Assembly: GCA_902778985.1 (NCBI GenBank)
Contig: CACYZS010000135.1
Span: 1 to 11,642 of the forward strand
Length of the DNA: 11,642 nt
DNA from: an uncultured Ruminococcus sp.
GTDB taxonomy: Bacteria; Bacillota; Clostridia; Oscillospirales; CAG-272
Direction: 5' to 3'
Shown: positions 1,716 to 10,123 of the stretch, one piece after another
Numbering within the stretch: position 1 is the stretch's first letter
Layout: each line of letters opens with the position of its first letter
Notes under the pieces: generated by a model
What the model saw: only the letters and a program-made list of their open reading frames with translations
What the model was told of the DNA's origin: nothing
Databases searched by the model: none
Position numbers and translations under genes: made by a program

Positions 1716-2498
1716 ATGGAGGCAACCAAAAAATCCCCTTCGGTGAAGAAGATCCTGTCGATCGTCGGTAATACGATCCTCTGGCTCTTCGTGGCGTTTG
1801 CGATCGTCATTACGGTCATCGTTTTCGCCAGCACCAGCAAGAGCGGTGACGACTCTTTGCCGACCATCGGCGGGCTTGCATTTGTTTCGATCAAGTCGGA
1901 TTCGATGGCGGGCAAGGACGGCTTCAAAAAAGGCACGCTGATTTTTGTCAACAGCCTGACTGACGCTGAGAAAAAAGACCTGAAGGTTGGCGACGTCATC
2001 ACCTTTACGTTTCTCAAGGACGGCACCAAGGACCTGAATACGCACCGTATTGTCGAAGTTCACGAGGACGGCGGCACGACCTATTACGTAACCAAGGGCG
2101 ATAACAATCCTGTCGCCGACGGTGTTTATAGCGCAGGTTCCGACGGACATAGTTCCAGCGGATACGTTGTTCCCGAAGTTGAAGTTCACGGCAAATGGAA
2201 CGGGCACAAGATTGCCGGCTTTGGCAGTATTCTGCTTTATCTGCAGACCCGCACCGGCTTCTTCGTCGTGATCATTCTGCCGCTGATCGCGTTCTTCCTC
2301 TACGAGTTGGTTCGTTTCATTATGGTCGTTATGTCCCTGAAAGGGAAGAAGACCGAAGACGAGATCCGTCAGCGCGTGATGGAGGAACTTCTGCGCGCGC
2401 AACAAGCGGCGCAGACCGACGCGCCCGCCGCAGCATCCGAACCCGCGGCGCCGGCAGAGGAACCCAAACCCGAAGAAGGATCGGAAAACAAAGAGTAA
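1716..2498 (+). CDS. sipW: Signal peptidase I, ER/SipW type, with charged C-terminal tail
   Basis: Membrane protease of family S26 that removes signal peptides from exported proteins on the outer face of the membrane. Order: cytoplasmic N-terminus; membrane helix ~9-37; catalytic SDSM with Ser63; THRIVEV with His110; TKGDNN with Asp129; second membrane helix ~181-208 (GFFVVIILPLIAFFLY); then a cytoplasmic helix EDEIRQRVMEELLRAQQ and an Ala/Pro/Glu-rich tail to residue 260. A His-Asp pair instead of the bacterial Lys marks the ER/archaeal-like subtype seen in Bacillota (SipW), which often serves a few special substrates such as matrix or surface proteins; substrates here are unknown. AAAGGA at 1696-1701 lies 14 bases from the ATG, a rather long spacing. 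The gene sits alone between its own promoter and a terminator. Its C-terminal helix closely matches that of the damaged copy at 6909-7438, so the two are paralogues. Confidence 0.9.
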   Translation: MEATKKSPSVKKILSIVGNTILWLFVAFAIVITVIVFASTSKSGDDSLPTIGGLAFVSIKSDSMAGKDGFKKGTLIFVNSLTDAEKKDLKVGDVITFTFLKDGTKDLNTHRIVEVHEDGGTTYYVTKGDNNPVADGVYSAGSDGHSSSGYVVPEVEVHGKWNGHKIAGFGSILLYLQTRTGFFVVIILPLIAFFLYELVRFIMVVMSLKGKKTEDEIRQRVMEELLRAQQAAQTDAPAAASEPAAPAEEPKPEEGSENKE

Positions 2499-2514
2499 CG
2501 ACGTTTCGCATCTA

Positions 2515-2536
2515 CCCGCGGGCACACGCCCGCGGG
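2515..2536 (+). other. GC-rich hairpin after the signal peptidase gene
   Basis: CCCGCGGGC (2515-2523) pairs perfectly with GCCCGCGGG (2528-2536) around an ACAC loop, 16 bases after the stop. There is no U-run behind it, so it may protect the 3' end of the message or cause pausing rather than terminate alone. Confidence 0.6.
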
Positions 2537-2570
2537 GGTGCGTTCACACGGGAATTTGTTCCGCGTATGC

Positions 2571-2615
2571 CTGTTTTTGCCCTCACTGGGTGAAAACAGT
2601 CAGATTTTTTCTTTT
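2571..2615 (+). terminator. Rho-independent terminator of the signal peptidase gene
   Basis: CTGTTTTTGCCC (2571-2582) pairs with GGGTGAAAACAG (2588-2599) over 12 positions including two wobbles, loop TCACT. It is followed by TCAGATTTTTTCTTTT. This separates the signal peptidase gene from the operon that begins at 2699. Confidence 0.8.
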
Positions 2616-2638
2616 GCGCGCGGGCGCGCGATCACGCG

Positions 2639-2652
2639 TATTATATTATAAA
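2639..2652 (+). promoter_or_regulatory. Candidate -10 region for the AAA/DUF2357-like operon
   Basis: An A/T-only island (TATTATATTATAAA) in otherwise very GC-rich DNA, placed between the upstream terminator and the ATG at 2699. Possible -10 boxes are TATTAT (2639-2644), TATATT (2642-2647) and TATAAA (2647-2652). A convincing -35 is not seen; TTGCGC at 2614-2619 is the best but spaced 19 bases. A promoter is expected here because a terminator precedes it. Confidence 0.4.
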
Positions 2653-2660
2653 CTATATGA

Positions 2661-2678
2661 TCCGGCGTTTCCGCCGGA
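2661..2678 (+). promoter_or_regulatory. Leader hairpin before the operon's first gene
   Basis: TCCGGCG (2661-2667) pairs perfectly with CGCCGGA (2672-2678), loop TTTC. It lies 9 bases before the ribosome binding site AGGGGAG (2688-2694), so it could stabilise the 5' end or tune translation. No U-run follows. Confidence 0.45.
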
Positions 2679-2698
2679 AGACTTAAAAGGGGAGTATC

Positions 2699-3286
2699 AT
2701 GGGCGCATTTCTCGACTGGTTCTTTGAATTCATGACGACCATGCTCAAAGACGGCGTTTTGAGGATCTTTACGGGCATCTTCTGGGGTGTCGTGCAGATC
2801 TTCAACATCCCCGCCTATATTTCGATCTTTAACTCCCACAGCAGCGGGTTCTCCGCGATCGAGTGGGTGTTGTCGATCTTTGCGATGATCGTCATCTTCC
2901 TGATCTGGGCGCTGTTGATCACGCTCGCCGTGTTCGGTCTCCGCAAGTATTTCCGCTTCCGCCGTTCGATCGTCGGGAACGAAGATCTGCTTGAGGAACT
3001 TGCCGATATGCACCGCGACGTACTCCGGCTCACCAAGGAGAAAGAGCGGATCATGGCGCTCAAGATCGGTCAGACCTCGATCTCGGTCGACGAACTGAAC
3101 GCGATCCTGAACCCCGACGAGGAGGGCAACGCCTCGATCGAAGAGGCGCAGGCGGCGGGTATGGCGCGCCAGGCGGTCGCCTCCGGCGGGGAAGGCTCCG
3201 GCGGCTTTCCGAGATCTGCGACGACTTCCGCAATTTCGCGTGCAGTAAGATGCACCTGTACTACGAGATCCGCACCATCCGGCTGA
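2699..3286 (+). CDS. Membrane-anchored N-terminal part of the McrB-like AAA+ protein (frameshifted)
   Basis: As read, 195 residues. A hydrophobic stretch at ~20-42 and a clear membrane helix at ~57-82 (WVLSIFAMIVIFLIWALL) are followed by RKYFRFRR and a short coiled coil at ~98-122. A Gly/Ser-rich linker (SGGEGSGG) ends the convincing coding sequence near residue 169. The remaining ~26 residues (rich in Ser, Thr, Arg and Cys) do not look like protein. From about 3205 the next-frame sequence continues smoothly (LSEICDDFRNF...) into the AAA+ domain. Restoring one base, for instance a third C-like position in GGCGGC-CTTTCC, would give a single protein of about 501 residues (2699-4203). So I read this as the anchor half of one gene, not an independent gene. 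The ATG has a strong AGGGGAG site four bases upstream. No named family is recognised for the anchor itself. Confidence 0.7.
   Translation: MGAFLDWFFEFMTTMLKDGVLRIFTGIFWGVVQIFNIPAYISIFNSHSSGFSAIEWVLSIFAMIVIFLIWALLITLAVFGLRKYFRFRRSIVGNEDLLEELADMHRDVLRLTKEKERIMALKIGQTSISVDELNAILNPDEEGNASIEEAQAAGMARQAVASGGEGSGGFPRSATTSAISRAVRCTCTTRSAPSG
3195..3212 (+). other. Frameshift point inside the AAA+ gene
   Basis: Coding quality passes from the frame of the ATG at 2699 to the frame one base back within this stretch. The upstream frame gives a natural Gly/Ser linker; the downstream frame gives LSEICDDFRNFACSKMHLYYE leading into Walker A. The local sequence GGCTTTCC does not form a canonical slippery heptamer, so loss of one base in a C/T run (mutation or sequencing error) is more likely than programmed frameshifting. 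Confidence 0.7.
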
Positions 3287-4203
3287 TGTTCGCGGGACTT
3301 GCCTCGACCAAAATGATCCTTCTGCAGGGTATTTCGGGTACCGGTAAGACCTCGCTGCCGTATTCGATGGGTAAGTATTTCAAGAACGACGCCACCATCG
3401 CGTCGGTGCAGCCGTCCTGGCGTGACCGTACCGAACTTTTCGGCTACTTCAACGAGTTTACCAAGAAGTTCAACGAGACCGAATTCCTGCGCCGTATCTA
3501 CGAGGCGTCCTATAACGACGACATCAACGTCATCGTCCTCGACGAGATGAACATCGCGCGTGTCGAGTACTACTTCGCCGAGATGCTTTCGGTTCTGGAA
3601 ATGCCCGACCCGAACGAGTGGAAACTCGAACTCGTCCCGGCGTCCTGGCCCGACGACCCGGTCCACCTGAAGGACGGCAAACTCCAGATCCCGCAGAACG
3701 TTTGGTACGTCGGAACGGCGAACAACGACGACTCGACCTTCGCCGTGTCGGATAAGGTGTACGACCGTGCGCTGGTCATCAACCTCGACAGTAAGGGCGT
3801 GCCCTTCGAGGCGCCTGAGACCGAGGCGAAGCGCATTTCCTACAAGTATATCGAGAGCCTGTATCAAAAAGCGTTCAAGGACCACCCGGTCAGCCAGAAA
3901 GTGCTGGACGATATCTCGAAACTCGACCTGTACGTGATCGAGCACTTCCGGGTTGCGTTCGGTAACCGTATCATGAAGCAGATGCTGCTCTTCGTTCCCG
4001 CCTACGTCGCCTGCGGCGGCACCGAACTCGACGGGATCGACTACGTTCTTGCGACCAAGGTCTTCCGGAAATTCGAGGGCTTGAACCTCTCCCTGATCCG
4101 CGACGAGATCCGCGGACTGATCGCGTATCTGGACGCCGTGTTCGGACGCGGACAGATGAAGGAGTGTATCTCCTACCTCGAACGTCTGCAGAAGATGTTC
4201 TAA
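3250..4203 (+). CDS. McrB-like AAA+ ATPase domain (C-terminal part of the frameshifted gene)
   Basis: ATP-driven ring motor of the McrB branch of AAA+. Numbering from the ATG at 3250: Walker A GISGTGKTS (27-35), Walker B VIVLDEMNIARVEYY with Asp98-Glu99, sensor-1 region GTANNDD (155-161, the place of McrB's GTMNTAD) and a DRA element with Arg173 that could be the arginine finger. A helical lid follows (about 200-317). The DEMN Walker B and the GT-NN sensor favour McrB/dynein-like AAA+ over ClpX or FtsH types; I cannot tell ATP from GTP. The ATG at 3250 has no ribosome binding site and lies inside a frame that already reads as protein from about 3205, so it is probably not a true start; the natural protein begins at 2699. 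In McrBC-type pairs the neighbour downstream is the McrC-like partner, which fits the gene at 4254. Confidence 0.85.
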   Translation: MHLYYEIRTIRLMFAGLASTKMILLQGISGTGKTSLPYSMGKYFKNDATIASVQPSWRDRTELFGYFNEFTKKFNETEFLRRIYEASYNDDINVIVLDEMNIARVEYYFAEMLSVLEMPDPNEWKLELVPASWPDDPVHLKDGKLQIPQNVWYVGTANNDDSTFAVSDKVYDRALVINLDSKGVPFEAPETEAKRISYKYIESLYQKAFKDHPVSQKVLDDISKLDLYVIEHFRVAFGNRIMKQMLLFVPAYVACGGTELDGIDYVLATKVFRKFEGLNLSLIRDEIRGLIAYLDAVFGRGQMKECISYLERLQKMF

Positions 4204-4225
4204 AACCGGGGAATACCCGAAAACA

Positions 4226-4249
4226 GGCGGCGTGACCGCCGGAAAGGAG
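4226..4249 (+). promoter_or_regulatory. Small hairpin and ribosome binding site before the DUF2357-like gene
   Basis: GGCGG (4226-4230) pairs with CCGCC (4236-4240), loop CGTGA, immediately before a near-perfect AAAGGAG (4243-4249) placed four bases from the ATG at 4254. The strong site supports this start. The hairpin could shield the intercistronic junction; no U-run follows, so it is not a terminator. Confidence 0.5.
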
Positions 4250-4253
4250 CGTT

Positions 4254-6887
4254 ATGGACGAAGAGCGAAAAGTGCGCGGGACGTCGGATGACGCTCCTGT
4301 TGTTTCGGATATTGATTCGATCTCCGAGGCGCACGAGGATAGTTACGTTGCCCCCCGCTACACCTTCGTAGCCGAAAAAGAGGATCCGACCACCCGCGAC
4401 AAGTACGGGTTGGTCTACGACGGGATGAACCAACTCTCGGCGGACATCCGCCGGGACGTCGACGTCTTCGCCGCGGTCGAGGATATGATCCGCCGCGGAT
4501 CGGGCGAGATCGCCCTGAAGCGCCAGATGATGCGCAAAACGCTGGACGCCACGTGGATCAAGGTCATCGAGGACTGCATCATTCCGCTCGACAACGTGAT
4601 CCGCAAACCGCGCCGTTTCATTGAGGAAAACGAGGCGGTCCTTCCGATCGAACTGTCCCGCAACATCACCAGCCGTTCGATGCGGCACCTTGCCCAGCAC
4701 ACCGACTATATCAGCAAGATCGAGGGCGACACCATCACGCCGTCCAAGATCCTGAACGTCTTCCGTGACGAGACGGTGCAGACCTACGAGAACCGCTTCG
4801 TCAATACGCTGATCAACCGGCTGTATATCTTCGTTTCGCGCCGCTACGACGCGATCCGCGAGAACGGGCGCGCTTCGGCGACCTCGGTCCTCTCCTACGA
4901 GAGCAAATTCGAGACCGCGTCGGTGCGCGGGAAGATCAGTCTGAATATGGAGATCTCCGCGTCCTCCGAGGTCGAAGGCGCGCGGAAAGAGACCCACGAA
5001 GAGGCGGAACTCTGGGAGCGGCTCGAACACCTGAAACAGGTCGTTTCGGCGTACGCCACCTCTCCCTTCGTGCAGATGATGGGGAAGAACTACGTGCGTC
5101 CCCCGATCATGCACACCAACGCGATCAACAAGAACCGCGACCTGCGCCAGTGCGTCGCGCTCTGGGAGTTTATCGAGAGTTACGAGGGCGCGGGTTACGA
5201 ACTGTCGGTCAAGGATACCGCCGAAAAGATGGACGACGCCTACCTCGACGAGATGCTTTCGGCTCTCGCCGTGCAGTACTGCGTCTTCCGCTACAATATG
5301 TCGGCGGAGATCACCGACGAGATGATCCTTTCCGAGACCGAGGACGGCGAACCCTTCGTGCCGAAATTCCTCGATAATCTCGAGGAATACGAGAGCGACG
5401 ATTTCAACGTCCACGATACTTCGTACAAGAAGTATATGGCGATCAACCAACTCAACCCGAAGCGGAAACTGACCGTCGGGGAGTGGCGGATCCGCCGCGC
5501 GATCGACGTCGCCCTGAAAGCCGACCGTATCCTGGAACTGAAACGCATCTCCGACGAGATCGAGCGCCGTCGCCTCGAAGAAGAAGAGGCCGCCCGCGCC
5601 AAGATGGAGAAGGAAGAGGCGGCGCGTCTCGAGCGCGAAGCCGAAGAAGCGCGCGAAAGACAGCAGAGAGAGGCGGAGTCCGAGGCGATTGAAGAGATGA
5701 ACGCCAAGTCCGACGCCGAAGAAGCGCTGCGTAAAACCGCCGAAGCAGAGGCGGAGAGCGCCGAACGCGAAGCCGAGCGCGACCGCGAGATCGAGGAGAC
5801 CGAAGAGGAAAGATACGCCCGGCAACTCGAAGAGGAACGCCTGCGTGCAGAAGAGGTCGACCGCCGCCGCATGGAAGCGGAGAGCGGCGTGACCGAAGGG
5901 ACGCCGACCGAACTGTCCGCCGGGGAGATCGCCGCCATGCGCGACGAGGACGCCGAGCAGGAGAAGATCGAAGAGATGCGCGACCGCCAAGAGGCGATCG
6001 AGCGCGAAAAACGCGAGGCAGAGGAAGCCGCCGCACGCGAGAACTATCTTGCCGAAGAGGCGAAGAGAGAAGGGCTGCGTGAGGAGACCGACCTTGCCGA
6101 TCGCGAGTTGACCGAACAGGAACTCGAGGAAGCCGCCGCGCTCCGCGAAAAGGAAGCCGAAGAGGCGCGCCTCCACGAAGAGGAAGAGCGTCTTGCCCGC
6201 GAGAGGGAGGAAGAGGAACGCCTTGCCCGCGAGGAAGCCGAACGGCTCGCCCGCGAAATGGAAGAGGACGAAGCCGAGCGCTATATCCGCGAGGAAGAGG
6301 AAGAGGCGCAGAGAAGAGAACGCGAACGGGCGGAACTTGAGGCACAGGAAGAGGCGGAGGCCCGTCGCCGCGAGGAAGAGGAAGCCCTCCGCAAGGAAGA
6401 GGCGGAACTCGTCGCCGCAGCCACGGAAGAAGTCGACGAAGAAGAATCCGCGCCGCCCGCCGAACCCGAAGAAACGCAGGAAGAGACAGCCGAAGAAACG
6501 GTCGAAGAGACCGCGGAAGAGACCGCGGAAGAGACCGTCGAAGAAACGGCGGAACAACCGGAAGAACCGGTCGTGGAAGCAGTCGAAGAAACGACCGAAG
6601 AAACGACCGAAGAAACGACCGAAGAAACGGTTGCGGAACCTGCCGAAGAAGCGGAAGAAACGGTCGAGGAAACGCCGGAACCCGAAGAAGAACCTGCGGG
6701 ATCCGACATCCCCGAACCCGCTCTGCAGAACAAGAAACCGACGGTGAAACCCGGTCGCAAGACCGGCGCGAATCCCAACACCAGAAAGAAGACCAGAATG
6801 AGACCCGGCGCGAAGAAGACCGGGCAGAAGAAGGTCAAACCCGGCGAACAAAGAGTCTCGCCGAGAAAGAAGAACCGAAAGAAATAA
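4254..6887 (+). CDS. DUF2357/McrC-like protein with long charged helix and basic tail
   Basis: 877 residues; probable partner of the AAA+ protein. The folded N-terminal half (~1-420) carries motifs resembling DUF2357 (McrC-associated) proteins: LSRNITSRSMRHLAQHT, TYENRFVNTLINRLYIFV at ~177-194, and a later YVRPPIMHTNAINKN...CVALWEFI block with Trp304. I see no clear PD-(D/E)xK nuclease after it. Instead, residues ~422-720 are almost entirely Glu, Arg, Ala and Lys in alternating charge blocks, typical of a coiled coil or a single alpha helix. Residues ~735-825 are an acidic EET repeat (EETA, EETV, EETT), encoded in part by perfect 12-base repeats. The last ~52 residues are strongly basic (22 Lys/Arg) with three [K/R]PG motifs. 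No signal peptide or membrane helix. It follows the AAA+ gene by 50 bases. The DUF2357 assignment is by motif resemblance and needs a profile search; the function is unknown. Confidence 0.75.
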   Translation: MDEERKVRGTSDDAPVVSDIDSISEAHEDSYVAPRYTFVAEKEDPTTRDKYGLVYDGMNQLSADIRRDVDVFAAVEDMIRRGSGEIALKRQMMRKTLDATWIKVIEDCIIPLDNVIRKPRRFIEENEAVLPIELSRNITSRSMRHLAQHTDYISKIEGDTITPSKILNVFRDETVQTYENRFVNTLINRLYIFVSRRYDAIRENGRASATSVLSYESKFETASVRGKISLNMEISASSEVEGARKETHEEAELWERLEHLKQVVSAYATSPFVQMMGKNYVRPPIMHTNAINKNRDLRQCVALWEFIESYEGAGYELSVKDTAEKMDDAYLDEMLSALAVQYCVFRYNMSAEITDEMILSETEDGEPFVPKFLDNLEEYESDDFNVHDTSYKKYMAINQLNPKRKLTVGEWRIRRAIDVALKADRILELKRISDEIERRRLEEEEAARAKMEKEEAARLEREAEEARERQQREAESEAIEEMNAKSDAEEALRKTAEAEAESAEREAERDREIEETEEERYARQLEEERLRAEEVDRRRMEAESGVTEGTPTELSAGEIAAMRDEDAEQEKIEEMRDRQEAIEREKREAEEAAARENYLAEEAKREGLREETDLADRELTEQELEEAAALREKEAEEARLHEEEERLAREREEEERLAREEAERLAREMEEDEAERYIREEEEEAQRRERERAELEAQEEAEARRREEEEALRKEEAELVAAATEEVDEEESAPPAEPEETQEETAEETVEETAEETAEETVEETAEQPEEPVVEAVEETTEETTEETTEETVAEPAEEAEETVEETPEPEEEPAGSDIPEPALQNKKPTVKPGRKTGANPNTRKKTRMRPGAKKTGQKKVKPGEQRVSPRKKNRKK
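6585..6629 (+). repeat. Tandem 12-base repeat coding Glu-Glu-Thr-Thr
   Basis: Three perfect copies of GAAGAAACGACC (6585-6596, 6597-6608, 6609-6620) and a partial fourth copy to 6629, within a longer degenerate Glu-Thr-rich stretch (about 6460-6690). The unit is a multiple of three, so copy changes keep the frame and would only alter the length of the acidic region. Confidence 0.9.
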
Positions 6888-6908
6888 AGACGGAGGAGAG
6901 GGAGACCG

Positions 6909-7250
6909 ATGGCAAAGCCGGCGGGGAAGACCGAAGCAAAACTGAAACTGACCCCCGGTAAGATCGCGTACGCGGTCCTGATCCTCCTTCTCGTGATCCT
7001 GGTCTTCTATCTTGTGATCGTCCGGATCGCGGGCGGGGTCCCGTCGCTCTTCGGGTATTCGGTGGTGCGCATCGTCACCCCGTCGATGGATCCGAAGATC
7101 CCGGTCGGTTCGTTCGTCCTGATCAAAAAGGCGTCGCCCGAAGAGATCCGAGTGGGGGACATCATCACCTTTTATACCGACGATCCCGATCCCGCCGTCG
7201 CGGGAAAGACCATCACCCACCGCGTCTTTTCCGTACGCACCTGCCCGTAG
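6909..7250 (+). CDS. Second ER/SipW-type signal peptidase, N-terminal fragment
   Basis: 113 residues before a stop at 7248-7250. Membrane helix ~17-41 (IAYAVLILLLVILVFYLVIV), then TPSM with the catalytic Ser59, PVGSFVLIKKAS, RVGDIITFY and ITHRVFS with His104. The protein then departs into a short unrelated end (VRTCP). Compared with the copy at 1716, the whole block after the His motif is missing, including the GDNN Asp region and the strands leading to the second membrane helix, so this product lacks a complete Ser-His-Asp set and is probably inactive. The ATG has GGAGGAGAGGG 6-16 bases upstream, only 21 bases after the DUF2357-like gene, so it belongs to the same operon. See the remnant that follows. 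Confidence 0.75.
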   Translation: MAKPAGKTEAKLKLTPGKIAYAVLILLLVILVFYLVIVRIAGGVPSLFGYSVVRIVTPSMDPKIPVGSFVLIKKASPEEIRVGDIITFYTDDPDPAVAGKTITHRVFSVRTCP

Positions 7251-7438
7251 CGATCCTCGTCACGGTTCTGATCCCGACGATCATCTTGACGCAGAGCGCG
7301 ATCCGAAAGAGAATGAAGGCGATCCCCGCAGAGCGCGAAGACCTGATCCGCCGCCGTGTGGAGGAGGAACTCGCCCGGCTGAAACAGACGCAAAACAAGG
7401 ACGACGACCGCCCCGGGACCGGGACGGGAGAGCAATAA
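7232..7438 (+). pseudogene. C-terminal remnant of the second signal peptidase, out of frame
   Basis: In a different frame from the fragment before it, this stretch reads as a membrane helix (LPVAILVTVLIPTIILT), a basic cytoplasmic edge, then EDLIRRRVEEELARLKQTQ and a polar tail ending at a TAA at 7436-7438. It matches the end of the intact signal peptidase at 1716 (membrane helix with LPLIAF, then EDEIRQRVMEELLRAQQ). By comparison with that copy about 60 residues and a non-multiple of three bases are missing between THRVFS and this helix. There is no start codon with a ribosome binding site, so it is a remnant of the gene starting at 6909: an internal deletion with frameshift, or an assembly collapse. 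Confidence 0.75.
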
Positions 7439-7448
7439 TCCGACAGTG

Positions 7449-7454
7449 AAAGGA
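7449..7454 (+). promoter_or_regulatory. Ribosome binding site that fixes the start of the small helical gene
   Basis: AAAGGA lies nine bases before the ATG at 7464. A GTG at 7446, in the same frame, would overlap this site and has no site of its own, so the ATG is preferred. Confidence 0.75.
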
Positions 7455-7463
7455 ACGATCTCC

Positions 7464-7706
7464 ATGTTTGAAAAGTTCAAAATCAGGAAACAGATAAAGG
7501 TCATTCGTCAGAGGATCAGTTTCTTGGAACAGAAGCGCGCGAGAAGCCAGGCGGCGTTGGTCGACGCCATTCTCCGCAAAGTGGATCCGGCGGACGAGGA
7601 CGTGGAATATTTCAACCAGTTTACCGGCGAGATCGACCGTCTCCGTACCGAGATGCACGAACTCGAAAACCAACTTTTGAAGGATAAAAAAACGGGTAAA
7701 GTATGA
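7464..7706 (+). CDS. Small helical (coiled-coil) protein of unknown function
   Basis: 80 residues from the ATG at 7464. Two predicted helices, residues ~1-38 (basic, FKIRKQIKVIRQRISFLEQKR) and ~54-76 (FTGEIDRLRTEMHELENQLL), are joined by an acidic linker (DPADEDVEYF). The heptad-like spacing of Leu, Ile and Met suggests a coiled coil, perhaps a dimer or a helical hairpin. No cysteines, no signal peptide, no membrane helix. Its stop codon overlaps the start of the phosphodiesterase gene by ATGA (7703-7706), so the two are translationally coupled and probably made in a fixed ratio; a role as partner of that enzyme is an inference. I do not recognise a named family. Confidence 0.7.
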   Translation: MFEKFKIRKQIKVIRQRISFLEQKRARSQAALVDAILRKVDPADEDVEYFNQFTGEIDRLRTEMHELENQLLKDKKTGKV

Positions 7707-10123
7707 AGAATCAGAAGATCAAAAAGATCCTCTATACGGCGGCCCTGATCGGGACGGCGATTCTTCTTATTGTCTCCGTGATCTATTTCCTTTCGGTCAT
7801 CATCCATTTCCGCGCCGACCTGCAGGAGACGACCGAGTCGCTTTCTCTGCAGATGGCGACCGACGCCGCGAACGAGATCAACGTCGTTCTGGATACCGAG
7901 TTCGCGAACTGCGACGCGATGGCGGAGTACATCAGATACGCCGGAGACGAATGGGACGACGAAGCGCAGAACACCGTTCACGGACTGCTCCGGGATTATA
8001 AGAACAACCGCGAACACATCACCTACGTCGCCGAGGTCCGCTACTACCGCGGGGGCGTCGAGTACGACTACGACGGAAACCCGATCGCCCTGACCGAGAG
8101 CAAGAGCGCCGACATCCGGGATTGCCTTGCCTACGACACCCCTGTTTTCTCGGGCATTTTTGAGGGAAACTACGATCACGGGAATTACCGCGCCATCGTT
8201 CTCTGGTACCCCTTTACCGAGGAAGACGAGGCGTGTATCGACGGCTTCATGATCTACTACCTCTCCGACAACTTCTTCTCCCGTACGTCGTTCTATTCGG
8301 TGCGCGTCGCGGAAGAGGCGCCGGCGCAAGAGGAGTCCGAGAACGCCGACGATAACAAGCGGAAAGAGGCGTTTACCAACTCCGCCGCCTTCTCCTGTAT
8401 CGTTTCGCGCGAGGAGTCCCGCGTCCCCAACTGCTGGTCGATCGACCTGATCGGTAAGAACTCGACCAACGCTCTGGCGATCGATTCGCACGCCAATATC
8501 TTCGAGCAACTGAACCCCATGACGACCTACGCCGAGGGGATCAAGTATCTGCAGAGCGGCATGGAGCAGCGCGAAGCGCGCGTGACGACCGTCTCGATCT
8601 CCTCGACCAAGTATGCGATCGCGATCGCGCCCGTTCCGATGACGGGCGGCGAACTGATGGTCGTCGAGATCTACGATCCCGCGGTCATCTACCGGACCAG
8701 TTACAGTTTCATGGGACAGATGGAAGGGGCGCTGATCTTCCTCGGCGTTATCTTCGTCTCCATTCTGTTCTACTTGAACTATCAGCGGACGCACCTGCGC
8801 GAGAAAAAGGAACTGGAAGAGCAGATCGACTCGGTTTCCGGGTGTCTCACCTACCGTTACTTCTTGAACCACGCCGACGAACTGGTCGACAAGAACCCCG
8901 CCAACCGCTACGCCGTCGCGATGCTGCGCGTCAACTATCTGCAATACCTCGGGCAACTCTACGGCGACGAGATCTTTTTGAAGGTCATTCGGTTCGTCGG
9001 GGAAGTGTTCGAGAAACTGCTCGACCACACCGAGACCTACGGTTATATTTCGGACAGTAACTTCTCGGTCCTTCTGCACTACAAGGAAGAGGTCGAACTG
9101 ATGAACCGGCTGCGGATGATCCACGCGATCATCTACAACTTCCCGGAACTCAAAACCAAGAACAACCACGTCAAGGTCACTTTCGGTATCTACCTCGTCC
9201 GGCCGGGCGAGACCTTCTCGACGCTCCAATGCCTTGAAAAAGCGGGTATGGCGCTCCGTTCGACCTCCTTCTCGGTCGACTCGCTCTTCCGCTTCTACAA
9301 CGACGAACTGGGCGCCGACTCCAACCGGCAGGCGGAGATCGAACTCAAGATGGAGACCTCGCTGCAGAACGACGAGTTCAAGGTCTTCTATCAGCCGAAA
9401 TACAACCTGAAAAAAGAGACGATCGACTCGGCGGAAGCCCTGGTGCGCTGGTACGATCCCGAACTGCACCGCTACTACCCGCCCGCCGACTTTATCCCGC
9501 TCTTTGAGGAAAACGGGTTCATCGTCAAACTTGACCACTACGTGTTCGAGGCGGTCTGCCGCTTCGCCGCCGACCGTATCAAGAACGGGAAGCCGCTCGC
9601 GCCGATCTCGATCAACGCCTCGCGCGTGACGGCGGGCGAACCCGACTTCGTGCGCTACTATCTGGCGCTCAAGCGGAAATACGACATTCCGAACAACCTT
9701 TTGACCATCGAGTTTACCGAGTCTACCGCGATGGACAACTACGAATCGCTGCGCAAGATCGTCGCCGATCTGAAGGCGGGCGGCATCGGGAGTTCGGTCG
9801 ACGACTTCGGGTCCGGCTTCTCGTCCTACAGTATCCTGAAAGAGTTGAAGATGGACGAACTGAAACTCGACCGCTTCTTCATCACCGCCGGTATCGACGC
9901 CGAACGCGACGACGCGCTGCTGAACTCGGTCATCAAACTCGGTCAGAAACTGGGTATGAAGGTGACGCAGGAAGGCGTGGAGTCGGTCGAAATGATGGAC
10001 CGTCTGCGCCGCGCGGGCTGCAATACCGTGCAAGGGTACTACTATTCGCGTCCGATCACGCAGGACGATTTCGCCGCCTTCCTCGACAAGGAACTTGCGC
10101 CGAAGGGGACGGAAGAGACCTGA
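7703..10123 (+). CDS. Membrane c-di-GMP phosphodiesterase: sensor, degenerate GGDEF, EAL
   Basis: 806 residues. Membrane helix ~9-34, an extracytoplasmic region of ~300 residues (probably a Cache-like sensor, unproven), second membrane helix ~339-361, a GGDEF-fold domain ~375-535, then an EAL domain ~543-800. The GGDEF signature is replaced by ISDSN (449-453), so no cyclase activity is expected; it may still bind nucleotide or regulate. The EAL domain keeps the metal and catalytic set: EAL Glu578, Asn638 (SINAS), Glu670 (IEFTES), Asp700-Asp701 (DDFGSGFSS), Lys721 (LKLDR), Glu757 (QEGVE) and the QGYYYSRP end. It should therefore hydrolyse c-di-GMP to pGpG in the cytoplasm in response to an outside signal. 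It is the last gene of the tightly packed run and overlaps the small helical gene by four bases. c-di-GMP often controls surface attachment and motility, which fits the envelope theme of the neighbours, but the link is inference. Confidence 0.92.
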   Translation: MKNQKIKKILYTAALIGTAILLIVSVIYFLSVIIHFRADLQETTESLSLQMATDAANEINVVLDTEFANCDAMAEYIRYAGDEWDDEAQNTVHGLLRDYKNNREHITYVAEVRYYRGGVEYDYDGNPIALTESKSADIRDCLAYDTPVFSGIFEGNYDHGNYRAIVLWYPFTEEDEACIDGFMIYYLSDNFFSRTSFYSVRVAEEAPAQEESENADDNKRKEAFTNSAAFSCIVSREESRVPNCWSIDLIGKNSTNALAIDSHANIFEQLNPMTTYAEGIKYLQSGMEQREARVTTVSISSTKYAIAIAPVPMTGGELMVVEIYDPAVIYRTSYSFMGQMEGALIFLGVIFVSILFYLNYQRTHLREKKELEEQIDSVSGCLTYRYFLNHADELVDKNPANRYAVAMLRVNYLQYLGQLYGDEIFLKVIRFVGEVFEKLLDHTETYGYISDSNFSVLLHYKEEVELMNRLRMIHAIIYNFPELKTKNNHVKVTFGIYLVRPGETFSTLQCLEKAGMALRSTSFSVDSLFRFYNDELGADSNRQAEIELKMETSLQNDEFKVFYQPKYNLKKETIDSAEALVRWYDPELHRYYPPADFIPLFEENGFIVKLDHYVFEAVCRFAADRIKNGKPLAPISINASRVTAGEPDFVRYYLALKRKYDIPNNLLTIEFTESTAMDNYESLRKIVADLKAGGIGSSVDDFGSGFSSYSILKELKMDELKLDRFFITAGIDAERDDALLNSVIKLGQKLGMKVTQEGVESVEMMDRLRRAGCNTVQGYYYSRPITQDDFAAFLDKELAPKGTEET

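Follow-up and report, generated by a model that had tools for sequence, protein, structure and literature searches.

The window analysed here, an 11,642-nucleotide stretch of an uncultured Ruminococcus sp. genome, corresponds to contig C135 in an assembly of 250 contigs that is 85.9% complete, and it carries a gene module related to the McrBC restriction system. On the plus strand, and with short gaps from 1716 to 7438, lie genes for signal peptidase 1, a McrB-like AAA+ protein, a DUF2357 protein and signal peptidase 2, followed on the same strand by genes for a small protein and a GGDEF-EAL protein. The original prediction, made from the letters alone, had described this order as a membrane-tethered McrB-like motor with a DUF2357/McrC-like partner, set between two endoplasmic reticulum (ER)-type signal peptidases and without an evident nuclease.

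Genes of the module

Signal peptidase 1 (1716-2498, 260 residues) and, in the interrupted signal peptidase 2 (6909-7438), the first 113 residues exceed the cut-off of TIGR02228, the NCBIfam model for archaeal/ER-type signal peptidase I, with expect values (E) of 3.8e-21 and 6.4e-17, respectively, in line with the earlier assignment of both as ER-type enzymes. Residues S63, M64 and H110 are invariant across 17 aligned peptidases and include the Ser-His dyad as defined in PMC10269814; in signal peptidase 1, Ser63 and His110 are accompanied by hydrophobic segments and a charged C-terminal tail. Judged by sequence, the peptidases of the module are of the Ser-His, ER/SipW type. In the alignment, a charged tail after the last hydrophobic segment recurs in many module peptidases and could act as a docking site on the GTPase.

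The AAA+ gene spans 2699-4203 and is divided between two frames in this copy. Its 5′ part (2699-3286) encodes a hydrophobic N-terminal segment and a coil-like linker and leaves the frame after about position 3200, and its 3′ part (3250-4203), in another phase, encodes a McrB-like ATPase/GTPase domain with the Walker A motif GISGTGKT at 3328-3351 and the NxD signature Asn-Asn-Asp-Asp at 3721-3732. N379, D381 and D382 are invariant in the family alignment (A1), and the NxD motif occurs in all 52 AAA open reading frames (ORFs) that exceed 380 residues and have a Walker A motif, the other 12 of the 64 in the set lying outside this count. Searched against the PDB at E up to 0.01, the family profile matched only E. 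coli McrB (three distinct sequences). FtsB/DivIC is absent among the Pfam matches listed (25 of 28 families, for 19 AAA+ members), and Pfam found no DNA-recognition domain in the window's two AAA+ pieces or in the 19 family members. The predicted McrB-like protein with an N-terminal membrane helix is thus upheld in its McrB match and its hydrophobic segment and fails in being one open frame here.

Near 3197-3204 the AAA+ gene lacks 109-121 bases relative to four relatives and the frame is lost; signal peptidase 2 is likewise short by 148-154 bases at 7226 relative to three relatives, again with loss of the frame. Among eight AAA+ homologues that are 92-98% identical to the ATPase part, six have 526-544 residues (sequence letters inspected for two of these) and two have 334 and 317; the intact homologue P0003 has 538. 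A programmed frameshift in the AAA+ gene was considered and rejected, as the four relatives carry the extra 109-121 bases within one open frame, which makes a deletion or an assembly fault the simpler explanation, and the same applies to signal peptidase 2. Both breaks are either a true deletion or a fault of assembly. The original prediction had remarked on neither of them.

The 877-residue protein encoded at 4254-6887 matches PF09823 (DUF2357, McrC N-terminal-like) above the Pfam cut-off and has a Glu/Arg-rich, coil-like part and a basic C-terminus. A structural model, confined to the first 450 of the 877 residues, predicts a fold at residues 94-315 (4533-5198) whose top four PDB matches are McrC, as the original prediction had anticipated for this partner. 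The corresponding profile sequence search of the PDB returned mostly coiled or helical proteins, with McrC absent. The C-terminal half gives coiled-coil matches, and the protein resembles a charged coil beyond residue 400. Family profile searches recognised no nuclease family in the 877-residue protein, and with a limit of E 0.1 none of the module genes in the window matched a nuclease, HEPN or methyltransferase family. As far as tested, the module appears to be membrane-tethered and without a recognisable nuclease, as first described, with a charged coil in the nuclease's place. An antisense ORF of 1006 residues over the DUF2357 gene (4200-7220, minus strand) is probably a by-product of the composition of that gene rather than a gene.

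Downstream of signal peptidase 2 lie the genes for an 86-residue, helical-looking protein (7446-7706; cluster C5, 15 loci), which many relatives also have between their second peptidase and the EAL gene, and for the GGDEF-EAL protein (7703-10123), with which it shares 4 bases. The latter has N-terminal hydrophobic segments and matches to PF00563 (E 6.8e-57) and PF00990 (E 1.7e-8). Its GGDEF part reads YGDEI, which looks degenerate against the usual GGDEF motif, and its EAL-type motifs are kept; the protein may therefore break down cyclic di-GMP (c-di-GMP). A solute-binding protein gene precedes the module in the window and an M18 peptidase gene follows it, and Rfam and tRNA scans gave no matches.

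Conservation of the gene order

AAA+ matches are present in 33 of 295 genomes of the window's order, and any AAA+ match in 29 of 291 genomes of its class. The main set of relatives comprises 55 loci with a close AAA+ gene (L034-L057 and L065-L095) and was counted only where the flank sufficed; named genome records supplied 31 loci, among them some from Clostridia, Bacillales, Izemoplasmatales and Acholeplasmatales. Two species-representative collections yielded loci L034-L095, which may include near relatives, and the 64 AAA+ sequences contain no identical pair over the last 250 residues. A signal peptidase gene lies upstream of the AAA+ gene at a distance of 0-994 bases in 47 of 49 loci (L084 and L090 outside the count), the DUF2357 gene directly downstream in 48 of 48, and a further peptidase gene downstream in 36 of 38, with adjacency not required and ORFs of the merged cluster C0 counted in. 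As these proportions keep the order, the arrangement is beyond chance, and the genes stay together in relatives in the order that the original prediction had proposed to search for. Neither ground that the prediction gave for dropping the module idea applies, since the genes do not occur apart in most relatives and the 4254 gene is DUF2357/McrC-like.

The class-level search yielded a second set of 11 loci with the AAA+ gene and at least one peptidase. The upstream peptidase gene adjoins the AAA+ gene in seven of these, is 1.9-2.7 kilobases (kb) away in three and was not found in one; wherever the contig continues, the DUF2357 gene comes next (10/10) and a peptidase gene follows downstream (10/10). 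The peptidase-AAA+-DUF2357-peptidase arrangement is absent from the distant AAA+ loci returned by the same searches (L058-L064 and L167-L174). Four of these (L058, L059, L061 and L167) carry an AAA-DUF2357-AAA tandem without signal peptidases or the secreted neighbours described below, followed in L058 and L059 by a 1292-residue protein with hydrophobic segments, and the tandems are a separate branch.

Secreted neighbours and EAL genes

Gene clustering showed that many neighbours of the module in relatives, beyond the part of the locus covered by this window, are secreted proteins with a hydrophobic signal that terminates in a sequence like Ser/Thr-x-Tyr/Phe-Ala-Trp-Phe ('-AWF'). Counted by rule, there are 71 '-AWF' starts in the 704,515 bases of the 55 module loci (36/55 loci), and the 20 control stretches, which total 266,808 bases, have none. 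Each control stretch was taken from the beginning of contig C1, to a length of at most 18 kb, in a genome that also yielded order-level loci, and the controls include none of the 31 named records. For sequences of at least 12 kb, '-AWF' neighbours occur at 27 of 32 module loci versus 0 of 14 controls, and seven loci with other AAA genes have no such start. The rule was formulated after the sequences had been viewed, and the class-level loci fetched later were therefore scored with it unchanged, which gave '-AWF' starts in 6 of 11 peptidase-bearing loci versus 0 of 8 other AAA loci.

Of 291 genomes of the class, 15 have the AAA+ gene at E up to 1e-80. Substrate profile A7, itself derived from a search seeded with module neighbours, finds a match in 11 of these 15 and in 3 of the 276 others (Fisher P 1.8e-14), a count in which a weaker AAA match (14 genomes, E 8.8e-27 to 8.2e-4) is scored as lack of the gene. 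Two of the three exceptions match the start of the model only, and the third, G332, which shares genus g186 with three positive genomes, matches 133 positions. Order-level co-occurrence, with 26/30 genomes bearing AAA+ versus 33/265 without at E up to 0.001 and 22/30 versus 0/265 at E up to 1e-10, was set aside as circular because the query alignment came from the same genomes.

Neither Pfam nor NCBIfam gave nine substrate proteins a name above cut-off. Family models labelled 'Cognate SipW' exist; no model of NCBIfam put a name to the substrates, one member reaching E 0.006 to an unrelated family. The substrate profile found nothing in a sequence search of the PDB. One '-AWF' substrate is modelled as a beta-sandwich with a predicted local distance difference test (pLDDT) score of 90, its best Foldseek match being an archaeal thread filament (E 3.1e-3), and a VIA-align list contains many FimA-type pilins and places the TasA fibre (8aur) eleventh.

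Two further clusters occur at module loci. Proteins of 1280-1990 residues (cluster C6) lie upstream of signal peptidase 1 in L036, L038, L040, L041, L044, L070, L073 and L089, and the six members with a complete start bear a signal of the '-AW' or '-GW' type. A membrane protein found at 22 loci (cluster C4; e.g., L042:11943-12671 and L037:3485-4219) has no AW signal, carries a C-terminal 'WLEGxDxxC' sequence resembling that of the '-AWF' proteins and is often placed between the EAL gene and those for the substrates. A seemingly conserved cluster, C7, was rejected because in L067, L081 and L083 it is an antisense reading over the substrate genes.

EAL-like genes were counted with a model built from module loci and occur at 27 of 32 long module loci versus 0 of 14 controls, and in the second set at 6 of 10 module loci versus 0 of 8 other AAA loci. 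When five of the EAL-like proteins were checked against Pfam, four exceeded the EAL cut-off, and the fifth, an HD_5-EAL protein, exceeded that of HD_5 only.

Discussion

The presence of secreted, fibre-like neighbour genes in relatives suggests that the module probably contributes to building surface structures rather than to antiviral defence. As the '-AWF' site resembles the TasA/SipW case and Ser-His peptidases lie beside it, the simplest joint reading is surface-fibre maturation, to which the McrBC-derived GTPase pair would be the added, energy-using part. Taken together, the data make it probable that the module is an envelope machine derived from McrBC and of the kind named CoCoPALM in print by Bell et al. 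2024 (PMC11090510), which processes or assembles the subunits of a surface fibre and does not serve in restriction. The genomic context supports one of the two functions raised by the original prediction, the handling of envelope proteins together with a dedicated signal peptidase, and does not support the other, a membrane-bound relative of defence systems.

What the data show is the order of the genes, the types of domain, the McrC-like fold, and the enrichment and co-occurrence of the neighbours; the following mechanism is a proposal. Secreted '-AWF' subunits would enter via Sec and remain anchored by the uncut signal, and the paired Ser-His signal peptidases, which we infer to act on these substrates, would cut beside aromatic residues that are poorly handled by ordinary P-type peptidases. 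In the membrane topology supposed here, the anchored NxD GTPase may form a ring, activated by the DUF2357 protein in the place of McrC, and this ring could use nucleotide hydrolysis to release the cut subunits, hand them over or polymerise them. The end product would be a surface fibre or matrix, and the EAL-domain protein would tie the fibre pathway to c-di-GMP.

Several observations weigh against this interpretation. A substrate gene search of the window's own incomplete assembly found none, and there is no '-AWF' start in 19 of the 55 loci, in 5 of the 32 long loci or in 5 of the 11 loci of the second set. The likeness of the modelled substrate to pilins and TasA is also weak.

The strongest competing explanation, although an unlikely one, is membrane-protein quality control or signal-peptide clearing, in which the AAA+ protein would extract stalled preproteins or cleaved signal peptides from the membrane for secreted proteins in general, with no special part in making fibres. 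The signal peptidase gene near the AAA+ gene (47 of 49 loci) would suit such a role, as would the very large or diverse secreted neighbours at some loci (clusters C6 and C8), which point to several client types. A general service would, however, be expected to be widespread, and any AAA+ match is found in about one tenth of genomes; the likely clients moreover have one type of signal and are clustered at the locus.

It is improbable that the module is instead a membrane-bound anti-phage system, in which the McrB-like motor would sense infection, the module would harm the membrane or kill the cell and the peptidases would process an effector. The PADLOC model PDC-M26A does match the AAA+ protein at E 8.7e-38, homologues of McrB and McrC work as type IV restriction enzymes, the related CoCoNuTs are predicted defence systems in PMC11090510, and occurrence in the order and class is patchy. 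The PDC-M26A match is, however, restricted to the ATPase domain (positions 313-431 and 520-660 of 724), and the window's module genes have none of the nuclease, HEPN or methyltransferase families sought. Defence-type matches in the flanks are few, with 11 PADLOC families at E up to 1e-10, one to three members each and mad3 the best (E 2.3e-39), in a scan without a background rate that covered 68 of the 93 flanking genes listed, 25 having been dropped by eye. The phage collection holds two partial relatives, coverage of the query falls short of 80% in all 261 matching plasmid records, and the '-AWF' and EAL neighbours would be left unexplained.

Least credible is a fibre operon of peptidases, substrates and EAL protein in which the AAA+/DUF2357 pair is a separate passenger, inserted or regulating only: descriptions of the SipW-TasA filament systems of Bacillus include no such pair, and the words ATPase and GTPase are absent from the main text of PMC13082335, but the pair sits between the peptidases in most loci and substrate homologues are rare in genomes without the AAA+ gene.

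The surface-fibre interpretation can be extended, more tentatively, to a restriction motor pair that now drives a pathway of its own for export and fibre assembly, linked to c-di-GMP and present across Clostridia and Bacilli. Two ER-type peptidases and a large unnamed family of '-AWF' subunits would belong to this pathway, and a cytoplasmic McrB-type GTPase would power the assembly of a surface organelle. If the surface-fibre interpretation is right, a motor of type IV restriction has been turned to building surface structures, gut and rumen Clostridia possess an unrecognised route to surface fibres, and the PADLOC label of 'defence candidate' for PDC-M26A would mislead for this branch.

Comparison with known systems

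The module resembles the McrBC type IV restriction systems of E. coli and Thermococcus gammatolerans in having an AAA+ protein related to McrB and a DUF2357 protein with the predicted fold of the McrC N-terminus. It differs from them in the NxD rather than NxxD motif, the hydrophobic N-terminal segment and the neighbouring signal peptidases, and in that neither a DNA-binding nor a nuclease domain was found here. No functional study joining McrB with a signal peptidase, SipW or filaments was recognised in the literature searched, as judged largely by titles.

In Bacillus, TasA has an ER-type peptidase of its own, SipW, and aromatic P2′ residues are poorly handled by LepB, the ordinary peptidase of E. 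coli, according to PMC10269814. TasA, CalY and CapP of B. cereus are described in PMC13082335 as SipW-processed proteins that form or control filaments. The module shares with the SipW-TasA/CalY systems a predicted Ser-His signal peptidase and secreted proteins in which aromatic residues follow the cut site, and the beta-sandwich model of one '-AWF' substrate is weakly like the TasA fibre. Unlike SipW-TasA, it has two peptidases and a GTPase/DUF2357 pair, and its substrates are unnamed by Pfam and NCBIfam in the nine proteins tested.

The closest counterpart is CoCoPALM, described in PMC11090510 as a large clade with an NxD GTPase, an FtsB-like membrane and coil domain, a McrC homologue and genes of the signal peptidase family; the paper predicts a link to pilus assembly and leaves CoCoPALM to a forthcoming paper, and the main text is without the word SipW. 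No functional study of CoCoPALM was recognised in the literature searched. Like CoCoPALM, the module has an NxD McrB-like GTPase, a McrC-like (DUF2357) partner with coil, next to the GTPase gene at all loci counted, and associated genes of the signal peptidase family both upstream and downstream. Its GTPase has a hydrophobic N-terminal segment and a coil-like linker, and no FtsB-type domain is among the Pfam matches listed. By these features, rather than by its place in the published McrB tree, the window holds a damaged member of the named, functionally unstudied CoCoPALM class. To the published description this work adds the secreted '-AWF' neighbours, as likely clients, and the EAL genes, as a link to c-di-GMP, both of which are new here, and with these now indicated the function of CoCoPALM becomes testable.
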